NCBI GenBank assembly: GCA_945874895.1
Contig: CAMCIC010000001.1
Location: 124,001-188,000 of the forward strand
Reading direction: 5' to 3'
DNA: 64,000 nucleotides
DNA from: Akkermansia muciniphila
GTDB taxonomy: Bacteria; Verrucomicrobiota; Verrucomicrobiia; Verrucomicrobiales; Akkermansiaceae
The position numbers and the translations under genes were made by a program. Positions 10,154 to 15,121 of the stretch are shown here, piece after piece. Position 1 is the stretch's first letter. Each line of letters begins with the position of its first letter. The notes below the pieces were generated by a model, which was given only the letters and a program-made list of their open reading frames with translations, was not told the origin of the DNA and did no database searches.

Positions 10154-10783
10154 ATGCATACCATCACTGCCGACGACATCAGCGCCATGGACAAACTCGT
10201 CCGTGTGCAGTTCGCCACTTCCCTGCCCGGAGCCAAGCCGATTGCTCTGATTGGCACCATCGATCCCCAGGGCCAGACCAACCTCGCCCCATTTTCCAGC
10301 GTGGTGCATCTCGGGTCGAATCCTGCTTTGCTCGGCATGATCAGCCGACCCGATTTAGTGGAGCGCCACACCTTGTCGAACATCCTCGCAACAAAGTGCT
10401 GGACCATCAATCATCTGCATCCAGACATTCTTGATGCCGCGCATCAATGCTCGGCGCGCTATCCGCGTGAGGTTTCGGAATTTTCTGCTACGGGTCTCAC
10501 CGAACACTATGTCGATGGCTTCTCGGCACCATTCGTCGCGGAGTCGCGCTTGCGGATCGGCATGACGCTCGAACAAATCATCGACATCACCGCCAACGGC
10601 ACGCAGATGATCATCGGACGTGTGGCTCTGGTCCAGACCCGCGATGCGATGCACGGCGATGGTTCGCTCGATCTTCCCGCCATGGAATGCCTGGCTTCCA
10701 CCGCGCTCGATACCTACTTCACCCTGCAACCCGAAGCCCGCCTCGCTTATGCCAAGGCCGATCGCGCACCGCGTCGTCTCTAA
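10154..10783 (+). CDS. Flavin reductase-like FMN-binding split-barrel protein
   Basis: A 209-aa protein of the flavin reductase-like family: an N-terminal segment with KPIALIGTIDPQGQTNLAPF (near residues 27-46), the typical TNLAPFSSV stretch that contacts the flavin, then a conserved barrel containing TITAD-like and RHTLSNI segments. Members bind FMN or FAD and often reduce free flavin with NAD(P)H. No signal peptide. Its stop is separated from the start of the photolyase/cryptochrome homologue by a single base, so the two are almost certainly co-translated, which suggests that it supplies reduced flavin to that neighbour (inference). Confidence 0.8.
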   Translation: MHTITADDISAMDKLVRVQFATSLPGAKPIALIGTIDPQGQTNLAPFSSVVHLGSNPALLGMISRPDLVERHTLSNILATKCWTINHLHPDILDAAHQCSARYPREVSEFSATGLTEHYVDGFSAPFVAESRLRIGMTLEQIIDITANGTQMIIGRVALVQTRDAMHGDGSLDLPAMECLASTALDTYFTLQPEARLAYAKADRAPRRL

Positions 10784-10784
10784 C

Positions 10785-12266
10785 ATGGAAGTGACTCTCA
10801 TTTATCCGCACCAACTCTTCGCCGTAAATCCTGCGGTAGCATCGCAGAGGCATGCTTTCCTGATCGAAGATCCGCTGTTTTTCGGAAATGATGAACACTG
10901 GCCCTGTGCCATGCATCAGCAAAAGCTTTTGCTGCATCGCTTATCGATGGAAAGCTATGCGTACAAACTCGAAAGCGCGGATTTGCAGGTAACACACGTC
11001 AAAATGACCGATCCAGCGCCTACTCATAGCGCGAAGTTGTTAGAAAAATACCTGCCGAAAAACATCAAGACGCTGCATGTGGTGGATCCGGTTGATGAAA
11101 TTCTCCTCCGTCGGTTGAGACGATTTGCTGCCGAGCGAGGCATTGCGCTTCATCTCTACGATTCACCGAATTTCTTGAGCCCGCAAGAATTCCTGCACAC
11201 CGCACTGGCAGGGAAGAAAAAACCTTTCATGGCGCGGTTTTATGAGGCGCAGAGAAAGCGTATGAAAATATTATTGGATCAAAACGATGGACCCATCGGA
11301 GGTCATTGGTCGTTCGATGCCGAGAACCGAGCCAGATTACCGAAACACCATGTCGTGCCGCGTGAACCACACGCACATTCGCAGGAATGGCAGCAAGCCG
11401 CACGTGAAATCGCAGCCACATTCCCTGAAAATCCCGGCTGTCTATCGGATTTCCGCTGGCCTGTCACCCATGAGCAAGCGGAAGAGTGGTTGCAGCAATT
11501 CGTCATCGAACGCCTGTATGACTTCGGGATCTACGAGGATGCCATCGCCGTCGAATACACTTTTCTCTATCACTCCGCCATTACCCCCGCCCTGAACATC
11601 GGACTCCTGCATCCGCAACAAGTGATCGACGCCGTGATGGCGCATGCTGAACGCGTGCCGATCAATTCGTTAGAGGGATTTATCCGTCAAGTCATCGGCT
11701 GGCGCGAGTTCATGCGTGGCATCTATCAATTCCACGGCAACTCGATTCGCCGAAAAAACTTCTGGAACTTCACGCGGCGCATGCCTCGTTCCTGCTATGA
11801 CGGCACGACTGGCATAGCGCCTGTGGATCGCGTGATCCATCTTCTACTGCGCGAGGGCTATTGTCACCACATCGAACGGCTCATGGTGTTAGGAAATTTT
11901 TTCCTGCTCTGCCGCATTCACCCCGAAGATGTGTATCGCTGGTTCATGGAGATGTTTGTCGATTCCTACGATTGGGTCATGGTGCCCAATGTCTATGGCA
12001 TGTCGCAATTTGCCGATGGCGGGACTTTCACCACGAAGCCCTATCTTTCGGGATCGAACTATCTCAAAAAAATGTCCAACGAAGCAAGTGGCCCATGGTG
12101 CGAGATCTGGGACGGGTTGTTCTGGTCTTTCATTGACGAGCACTCTTCCTTTTTCCTGAAAAATCCGCGCCTATCGATGATGGTGCGCACATGGGAAAAA
12201 ATGAACGGAGACAAACGCGAAAATCACCTAAGGACAGCTCAGGATTTTTTGGAAAAGTTGATTTGA
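10785..12266 (+). CDS. Photolyase/cryptochrome homologue of the FeS-BCP (PhrB-like) group, lacking Fe-S cysteines
   Basis: A 493-aa protein with the Rossmann-like N-terminal domain (about 1-130) and the helical FAD-binding domain of deoxyribodipyrimidine photolyase-related proteins. Hallmarks include GFIRQVIGWREFMRG (298-312), HHIERLMVLGNF (361-372) and YGMSQFADGG (404-413). In PhrB-type proteins a loop with three cysteines follows KPYISGSNYI..MS and a fourth lies in a TGMxC motif; together they hold a 4Fe-4S cluster. Here the loop (431-447) is about ten residues shorter and has only Cys439, and TGMxC reads TGIAP. The cluster is therefore probably absent. Start ATG 10785 is one base after the flavin reductase-like gene. 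Confidence 0.88.
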   Translation: MEVTLIYPHQLFAVNPAVASQRHAFLIEDPLFFGNDEHWPCAMHQQKLLLHRLSMESYAYKLESADLQVTHVKMTDPAPTHSAKLLEKYLPKNIKTLHVVDPVDEILLRRLRRFAAERGIALHLYDSPNFLSPQEFLHTALAGKKKPFMARFYEAQRKRMKILLDQNDGPIGGHWSFDAENRARLPKHHVVPREPHAHSQEWQQAAREIAATFPENPGCLSDFRWPVTHEQAEEWLQQFVIERLYDFGIYEDAIAVEYTFLYHSAITPALNIGLLHPQQVIDAVMAHAERVPINSLEGFIRQVIGWREFMRGIYQFHGNSIRRKNFWNFTRRMPRSCYDGTTGIAPVDRVIHLLLREGYCHHIERLMVLGNFFLLCRIHPEDVYRWFMEMFVDSYDWVMVPNVYGMSQFADGGTFTTKPYLSGSNYLKKMSNEASGPWCEIWDGLFWSFIDEHSSFFLKNPRLSMMVRTWEKMNGDKRENHLRTAQDFLEKLI

Positions 12267-13577
12267 TCATTTCCACTCGATCGCGCCTATGTCCGGTTTT
12301 CTGCCGCGAAACGGGCGACCTGCATCAAGGCCCGCATCAATGAGGACGGAACTTGGCTTCGGTCGAAGAAAATCGATTTCAGGCAAATCTCCATTGGGTT
12401 GGCGTGGGCGCATCAGTTGCTTTTCATCGACGCTTTCCACCTCACGCTCTTTCACGAGCGACTTGAAATCGAAGGAGTTGTGGCTCACCTCACACTGGGT
12501 GCGATCGAGTTGATCGATCTCCTTGCTGCTACCCAGACCCAAGTTGTTTTTCAGCACATGCCCGTAACCCGGCACATCCGTGGCAGGATCGCGCAAGCGC
12601 CCGAGCATGTTGTAATTGCAACGATTCCGATAGGCACTGTTGTGAATGAAGTCGATACCACCGACCTGATGATTGGAGTAAAACCCGCCGGACTTGTTGC
12701 GTGCCGCGATACAGCCGATCACGCGATGCCGAGGAATCACCCTGGGCAAACGGTCGGCAGGAGTGTAGGCATAACCGCCAACCTTGAAGCCATTTCCATC
12801 GCCCAGCACCTCGAATTTCTTCCCAAAACCATTGTAAAATGCCCAGCAATTTTCTAACAAAACAGGCTCACTGGTATTGATAGAATCAAAGCCGTCATCG
12901 CTATTCAACCAAGCACGACAACCGCGAAACACGTTGTTCACGCTGCCCCGCGGCACGTGAAAGCCAAAGCCATCGACATTGCCACCGCGACCACCCTCGG
13001 ACGTGTTATCGTGATTCTGATAGGCATCGCAGTTCAAAACCAGATTGTTCGAGCCACGACCCAGCCAAAAACCGATTCCTTGTCCATCGCGCATGACGAG
13101 TCTCTCGAAGACATTGTCATTGCCGAGGTTTTCCACGTTGATCGATTGTGTGTGACCTTTGATCGTCACCTGAACGCCGACGAGCGAAATGCCGCGAAAA
13201 TGCAACCAAGATCCCCTCACACTGAAGGCATGGACGCGCAGGCCAGCAGGTCTTACTTGAGAAAAGTCCATGATGACTTCCTCGTTTTGATAGGCCTCAT
13301 AGCGGATCGGCTTCCCCTTCTCCCCACTCCGATCGAAAAGGCATACCAAAGCGCGCGAACTCTCTTTCTTGGCGATCTGCTCCTCGCTGACTTGGTAAAT
13401 TCCACCTCGAAGATAGACAAGGTCTCCTGGCTTGACTGATTTTTGCGCGCGCATCAGCGTGGCGAAGGGGCGTGCGAGAGATCCTTCATGGGCATCATTG
13501 CCATGAGGTGCCACAACAAAAATAGCAGCGGGCAAATGACTCACCCATGTGATGAAAAAGAACAAACGCAAAATCAT
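12267..13577 (-). CDS. Secreted right-handed beta-helix protein, polysaccharide lyase family 9-like
   Basis: A 436-aa protein with a signal peptide (about 1-17, ending LPAA) followed by the opening VAPHGNDAHEGSLARPFATL typical of secreted parallel beta-helix enzymes. Multiple rungs follow, and SDDGFDSINTSEP near residue 225 resembles the calcium-binding DDGFD segment of PL9 pectate lyases. It ends in a DIGAIEW motif often seen in such proteins. The likely role is beta-elimination of an acidic polysaccharide outside the cell, fitting the sulfatases elsewhere in the window. The stop abuts the convergent photolyase-homologue stop with no spacer. Confidence 0.8.
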   Translation of the reverse strand: MILRLFFFITWVSHLPAAIFVVAPHGNDAHEGSLARPFATLMRAQKSVKPGDLVYLRGGIYQVSEEQIAKKESSRALVCLFDRSGEKGKPIRYEAYQNEEVIMDFSQVRPAGLRVHAFSVRGSWLHFRGISLVGVQVTIKGHTQSINVENLGNDNVFERLVMRDGQGIGFWLGRGSNNLVLNCDAYQNHDNTSEGGRGGNVDGFGFHVPRGSVNNVFRGCRAWLNSDDGFDSINTSEPVLLENCWAFYNGFGKKFEVLGDGNGFKVGGYAYTPADRLPRVIPRHRVIGCIAARNKSGGFYSNHQVGGIDFIHNSAYRNRCNYNMLGRLRDPATDVPGYGHVLKNNLGLGSSKEIDQLDRTQCEVSHNSFDFKSLVKEREVESVDEKQLMRPRQPNGDLPEIDFLRPKPSSVLIDAGLDAGRPFRGRKPDIGAIEWK

Positions 13578-13692: not shown

Positions 13693-13753
13693 CTCTCGGC
13701 TCGCGCGAAATCATTTGCATGATGGTATTGCGTTACAAAAACATGCCCACATT

Positions 13754-15121
13754 ATGAAAACAAAAAACATGATCACCATCGGGCTCATGGCGGGAATTCA
13801 TTTTCTTGCCCATGCACAAGTCGGGACCACGAATACTCCAGGAGTGGTCGATTTGACAAAGCTCGCGAATTACGCCAGCCAATCGAAACCGGTTTACATC
13901 ACACGAACCAACACACCGGTGGCCAATCAGATCACGAACGCTGGTGCCACTCTGGGGCGGGTGATGTTTTACGACAAAAGACTTTCGCGCAACAGCGCGG
14001 TCAGCTGTTCTTCTTGTCATCAACAAGCCAATGCCTTTGGTGACACCGCACTGGCCAGCACCGGAGTGAGCGGCTCCACAGGCCGACACTCGATGCGGTT
14101 GGTCAATGCCGGATTTGCGACGGAAAGCAAATTCTTCTGGGACGAGAGAGCGGCAACTTTGGAAGCGCAAACCACGCAACCGGTGCGCGATCACGCCGAG
14201 ATGGGTTTCAGCGGAAGCAGCGGCGATCCAACCTTCGCGGATCTTGTGACGAGGCTTTCCGCGATTTCGGAATACCGCGTGTTATTTGCCATGACCTATG
14301 GTTCCGCTACGATCACGGAAACTCGCATTCAAAACGCTTTGGCCCAGTTCGTTCGCAGCATTCAGTCATTTGACTCGAAGTATGATGCCGGTCGTGCCCA
14401 AGCCTCCGACAATCAACCATTCCCCAACTTCACACCACAGGAAAATGCTGGTAAGGCGCTGTTTATCAATCCTCCTGGACCAGGCGGTGGAGCTGGTTGC
14501 GCAGGATGTCACGTGCCGCCGGAATTTTCCATCGATCCGAACAGCCGGAACAACGGCGTGACTGGATCGATCGGCGGAGGAACCGATCTCACCAACACCC
14601 GATCGCCCAGCCTGCGCGACATGGTCGGACCTAACGGAAAATCGAACGGTCCGCTCATGCATCACGGCGGTCAGGCCACGATCGCAGATTTGATCAATCA
14701 CTACAATTTGATCCCGGGAGACAACACCAATCTCGATCCTCGGTTGCGCCGTCCGGGAGGAGCGTTGCAAAACCTGAACCTGACTCAACAGCAAAAAGAC
14801 CAACTTGCCGCGTTTCTGCGCACGCTGACGGGCAGCAACGTCTACACTGACGTGAAGTGGTCGAGCCCCTTCACTGCGAGCAACCAGTTGACTCTCATCA
14901 TCCTTCCTGAAAGCGCCGTCAAGATGACTCGAAACCCGAACAACACTCTCACGTTGCAATGCCAAGCGGCCGCCGGTCTGAACTATCGCATGGAAAGTTC
15001 GACCAATCTCAAAGACTGGGTCCTCATGGAGCAGGTCGCATCAGGCCCCACAGGGGTCATTGAGAAAACCGTGCCCATCGCCAGCAATGCCACGTTTTAT
15101 CGATTCACCTACACGCCGTAA
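13754..15121 (+). CDS. Di-haem cytochrome c peroxidase family protein (MauG/CcpA-like)
   Basis: About 455 aa from ATG 13754, which directly opens a signal peptide (MKTKNMITIGLMAGIHFLAHA); a frame start at 13715 is less likely. Two haem c sites are visible: CSSCH at 85-89 and CAGCH at 249-253, in the spacing of bacterial di-haem peroxidases. The segment LMHHGGQATIADLINHYN fits the second-haem region. These periplasmic enzymes reduce hydrogen peroxide or oxidise protein partners. A C-terminal extension of about 75 residues (YRMESSTNLKDWVL) resembles a beta-sandwich module common at the ends of verrucomicrobial secreted proteins. It is monocistronic, ended by a strong terminator. Confidence 0.9.
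   Translation: MKTKNMITIGLMAGIHFLAHAQVGTTNTPGVVDLTKLANYASQSKPVYITRTNTPVANQITNAGATLGRVMFYDKRLSRNSAVSCSSCHQQANAFGDTALASTGVSGSTGRHSMRLVNAGFATESKFFWDERAATLEAQTTQPVRDHAEMGFSGSSGDPTFADLVTRLSAISEYRVLFAMTYGSATITETRIQNALAQFVRSIQSFDSKYDAGRAQASDNQPFPNFTPQENAGKALFINPPGPGGGAGCAGCHVPPEFSIDPNSRNNGVTGSIGGGTDLTNTRSPSLRDMVGPNGKSNGPLMHHGGQATIADLINHYNLIPGDNTNLDPRLRRPGGALQNLNLTQQQKDQLAAFLRTLTGSNVYTDVKWSSPFTASNQLTLIILPESAVKMTRNPNNTLTLQCQAAAGLNYRMESSTNLKDWVLMEQVASGPTGVIEKTVPIASNATFYRFTYTP

Follow-up and report, generated by a model that had tools for sequence, protein, structure and literature searches.

In a 64,000-nucleotide stretch of the Akkermansia muciniphila genome (contig CAMCIC010000001.1), here called the window, one gene very probably encodes a light-driven (6-4) photoproduct photolyase of the branch that lacks the Fe-S cluster, published as 'subgroup M'. 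The repair activity of the protein and its absence of iron are what we infer from the sequence, the clade, the conservation and the predicted fold, and the protein is an ordinary member of an already described clade, of which it is one more example. Among 110 prokaryotic (6-4) photolyases surveyed in 2022, the four cluster cysteines were present in all but subgroup M, which comprised 20 members from several lineages, including PromaPL of Prochlorococcus, with an incomplete electron chain and usually a methionine near FAD N5; the name FeS-BCP was proposed for the cluster-bearing members only (PMC9178010). Phr2 of marine Synechococcus is likewise described as a cluster-free protein of the PromaPL type (PMC9426592), and a 2015 study of PhrB counted 7% of the family without a Tyr460 homologue and without the cysteines (PMC4619345). 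In a 2025 paper, several orthologues without cysteines were taken to mean that some of these enzymes may do without the cluster in repair (PMC12082625). PromaPL itself, as described in papers that cite the original work, is a reported (6-4) photolyase without a cluster (PMC9178010; PMC9426592).

Family membership and the replaced cluster loop

The photolyase gene (Table 1) has an unbroken frame. Its product matches DPRP (PF04244, E 1.2e-48) and FAD_binding_7 in Pfam, so that the DPRP N-terminal domain and the photolyase FAD domain, by which the DPRP/PhrB family is defined, are both present. The solved relatives found by a sequence search of the PDB are Agrobacterium PhrB, Rhodobacter CryB and the Caulobacter, Synechococcus and Vibrio (6-4) photolyases, and the best of them are of the PhrB/CryB type without exception, which bears out the PhrB-class membership proposed in an initial annotation of this DNA. 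Identity to the solved or characterised-type Fe-S enzymes is about 30–31%. The PDB search gave eight distinct sequences of the family; these came from Fe-S-type enzymes, and no Fe-S-free member was seen among them. The window protein shares domain order, fold (TM ~0.9) and repair residues with the FeS-BCP enzymes (Agrobacterium PhrB, Rhodobacter CryB, and the Caulobacter and Vibrio (6-4) photolyases), but these differ in carrying a [4Fe-4S] cluster on four cysteines.

Ligand columns were read from an alignment with an Agrobacterium PhrB whose residues carry AfPhrB numbers. None of the four [4Fe-4S] cysteines of the FeS-BCP subtype is present (0/4): the column of C350 holds Pro346, in agreement with the altered TGMxC position described earlier, the columns of C438 and C441 are gaps, and C454 aligns with Glu440. 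In PhrB, 31 residues run from Tyr430 to Tyr460, against only 21 from Tyr426 to Phe446 in the counterpart here; the loop is thus 10 residues shorter, with Cys439 as its sole cysteine, just as the initial annotation had it. Across the Fe-S-free clade this replaced region keeps Trp438 and Asp443 in 124/124 sequences and Trp442 in 123/124, and Gly343, Pro346 (121/124), Asp348 and Ser424 are also invariant or nearly so. As a suggestion from the sequences, the tryptophans may have a packing role.

Table 1. Positions of the photolyase gene, selected codons and neighbouring genes in the window
Feature	Position	Strand	Evidence or conservation
Flavin-reductase-like gene (PF01613)	10154..10783	+	E 1.8e-18; solved homologue 3fge, E 1.5e-51
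Very probable Fe-S-free prokaryotic (6-4) photolyase, 493 aa	10785..12266	+	PF04244 and FAD_binding_7; PDB PhrB homologues; model vs 4DJA, TM 0.90; tree
Pro346 codon, column of PhrB Fe-S ligand C350	11820..11822	+	Pro in 121/124 Fe-S-free, Cys in 66/66 Fe-S-type
His362 codon; matches His366, which PhrB needs for repair (PMC4619345)	11868..11870	+	Kept in 123/124 and 66/66
Tyr420 codon; matches lesion-binding Tyr424 of PhrB	12042..12044	+	Kept in 124/124 and 66/66
Shortened loop Tyr426-Phe446 (YLKKMSNEASGPWCEIWDGLF), replaces three-cysteine loop	12060..12122	+	21 vs 31 residues in PhrB
Pel9A-like beta-helix protein, adjoins photolyase	12267-13577	-	
Di-haem cytochrome c peroxidase (MauG-like), near photolyase	13715-15121	+	

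Distribution and origin of the cluster-free type

Across 190 aligned homologues, all four ligand cysteines occur in 66 sequences, none in 124, and one to three in 0. The short loop is found in each of the best 80 relatives from a bacterial and archaeal genome collection (80/80), as is to be expected because these were found by similarity to the window protein. Less biased samples, drawn by Pfam family alone and not by such similarity, contain both types: the Fe-S-free share is 34/38 in the window's family, 5/19 across its phylum, 7/39 in the phylum of a cyanobacterial locus and 2/15 in the class of a Ruegeria locus. No genome with two whole genes of the DPRP/PhrB family was seen in these family-drawn samples.

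When 129 representatives were placed in a tree computed without the cluster columns, a single branch (SH-aLRT 100) splits the Fe-S-free from the Fe-S types, and the window photolyase lies deep within the Fe-S-free side. The phylogeny with the four cysteine columns marked, which had been proposed as a check, thus puts the two types on opposite sides of one branch. Since this split is obtained with the cluster columns excluded, absence of the cluster is, on these sequences, an old and widespread trait of a multi-phylum clade and not a loss in the window gene. When the tree was rooted with three photolyases from the same genome, the outgroup branches were very long and the basal split was weakly supported, and it gave no direction of cluster gain or loss. 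The initial annotation had called the four ligands 'lost or moved'. Their absence stands (0/4 columns), but 'lost' is not confirmed, since the rooted tree gave no direction, and a moved site is unlikely given the cysteine co-occurrence described below.

Two Fe-S-type loci deserve mention. L103 (G059:C24), in the same genus as the window, has an Fe-S-type copy in place of the Fe-S-free one, across the main branch of the tree, which suggests replacement by transfer; with such a copy within its own genus, the two kinds would replace each other between genomes. L194 (G233:C27), in the phylum of the cyanobacterial locus, stands out by its very long branch and by a loop (CGSCAFDPKRDCP) that falls about five residues short of the usual length.

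Repair residues, predicted fold and rival readings

Every repair residue that we checked is near-invariant across the Fe-S-free clade. His366, Leu370, Met410, Tyr424 and Tyr430 of PhrB correspond to His362, Leu366, Met406, Tyr420 and Tyr426 in the window protein, and all are kept, as is the Mg2+ Asp pair of PhrB (Asp178 and Asp252). The Mg2+ role of this pair is named in the title of a 2019 FEBS J paper by Ma et al., which reportedly studied PromaPL. The roles of the repair residues in PhrB have been described (PMC4619345; PMC12082625). At the PhrB Glu403 position, near FAD N5, the window protein has Met399, and of the PhrB electron chain only Trp386 is left, with Tyr338, Phe387 and Phe391.

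An AlphaFold model built with 48 clade sequences has a mean pLDDT of 90.6, with lower values (54–59) in two blocks covering residues 401–420. It matches the PhrB structure 4DJA best (TM 0.90/0.88, rmsd 3.0), and the overlay on PhrB called for at the outset therefore gives a matching fold. Relative to the two closest relatives, dN is ~0.10 and dS ~1.0, giving a dN/dS of ~0.1, which denotes strong purifying selection. Because the repair residues are kept, the fold is that of PhrB and selection is strong, we take the protein to be a working (6-4) photolyase, as judged from sequence and model.

By analogy with PhrB, FADH- in the C-terminal helical domain would absorb light directly or via an antenna pigment and pass an electron to the lesion, with His362 as the proton donor, Tyr420 and Tyr426 holding the lesion, and Asp178 and Asp252 binding Mg2+. 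The C-terminal roof, held by [4Fe-4S] in PhrB, would here be closed by the shorter loop, with its signature W(x)3WDGL(F/Y)W, together with Pro346, so that the cluster, we propose, would not be needed for stability. A search of the protein's own genome for FO-synthase (CofH) gave no match above the cut-off, which makes 8-HDF a less likely antenna. Besides the window photolyase, this genome carries a class I-like photolyase, another gene of photolyase/cryptochrome-like type and a short protein with the FAD domain; with class I-like photolyase genes present separately, the (6-4) role would be left open to the window protein. At L208:1171-2460 (G000:C5), this genome encodes a 429-residue protein with the photolyase FAD domain, without the N-terminal photolyase domain and with a C-terminus of about 190 further residues to which Pfam assigns no domain; this may be a short photolyase-like protein.

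The initial annotation left two readings, an Fe-S-free repair enzyme or a repurposed photoreceptor. The former is favoured by the kept repair residues, the PhrB fold, the strong selection and a clade whose Prochlorococcus member is a reported cluster-free (6-4) photolyase. For the latter, in which a cryptochrome-like protein would keep its FAD and signal in place of repairing DNA, we found almost nothing: the electron chain is unlike that of PhrB, and relatives such as Rhodobacter CryB have regulatory roles besides repair (PMC9178010), but the tested repair residues are all kept and almost invariant in the clade, and the neighbours are flavin-reductase-like, lyase-like and housekeeping genes, with neither a signalling partner nor an output domain in the vicinity. 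We therefore consider a photoreceptor very unlikely. Judged by its substitutions, L135 (G014:C41, same family) would suit a non-repair photoreceptor better than the window protein does. This Fe-S-free homologue evolves fast and has an unbroken frame, and it carries Gln in the column of His366, Met for Leu370, Ile for Met410, Thr for Tyr430 and Ala for the second Mg2+ Asp.

Two further readings concern the cluster itself. Cys337, Cys360, Cys376 and Cys439 might bind a cluster or zinc elsewhere in the protein, and Cys360 (98/124) and Cys376 (112/124) are indeed typical of the Fe-S-free clade. Nevertheless, Cys360, Cys376 and Cys439 occur together in 50/124 sequences and all four in only 2/124, 26 clade members have only two or three cysteines in total, and Cys337 is almost private to the window photolyase and one other protein (2/124). 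No conserved alternative cysteine set was found across the 124 sequences, and we rejected a substitute metal site, which these co-occurrences make extremely improbable; with the full set in 2/124, the convergence of the four cysteines named earlier as contrary evidence is unlikely. Recent decay of an Fe-S enzyme in the window's lineage has a probability close to nil. Fe-S-type copies do exist in the same-genus genome (G059, L103) and in other genomes of the family, but they lie across the main branch and are thus replacements rather than recent ancestors; a dN/dS of ~0.1 speaks against decay, and the short loop is conserved throughout the Fe-S-free clade. Recent loss was rejected because the tree places the window protein within that clade, not nested among Fe-S sequences.

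Gene neighbourhood and relation to known enzymes

The flavin-reductase-like gene stops one base ahead of the photolyase start, and the two are likely to be in the same operon. Close relatives have the same pair, as do other members of the family and locus L068, and it recurs in several Verrucomicrobiota. In a profile search, a flavin-reductase-like gene stood beside 9/123 Fe-S-free loci versus 0/66 Fe-S loci, and on these counts we rejected a broad conservation of this neighbourhood. All nine loci belong to Verrucomicrobiota where they are named or grouped, and the pair is therefore a lineage-level feature. A short-chain-dehydrogenase-like ORF cluster is commoner and is found beside both the Fe-S and the Fe-S-free kinds (38 loci). 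That a dedicated, co-expressed flavin-reductase-like protein supplies reduced flavin or keeps the photolyase FAD reduced, making the two genes a photorepair unit, seems to us unlikely.

Like subgroup M (PromaPL), the window protein lacks the Fe-S cysteines, places a methionine at FAD N5 and has only part of the electron chain, and it belongs to a multi-phylum clade. In the tree, the Prochlorococcus-like cyanobacterial protein L196, which may be PromaPL, falls in the same Fe-S-free clade; unlike L196, to which it is about 47% identical, the window protein comes from Verrucomicrobiota and is preceded by a flavin-reductase-like gene.

What the [4Fe-4S] cluster does in prokaryotic (6-4) photolyases is not known (PMC12082625); PhrB variants mutated in the cluster cysteines either failed to express or came out insoluble (PMC4619345). 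The 190 sequences, with their all-or-none split, widen the published count of 20 Fe-S-free members. A large natural clade without the cluster offers a direct comparison for the role of the cluster, and the signature of Pro346, Trp438, Trp442 and Asp443 suggests what replaces it in holding the fold.
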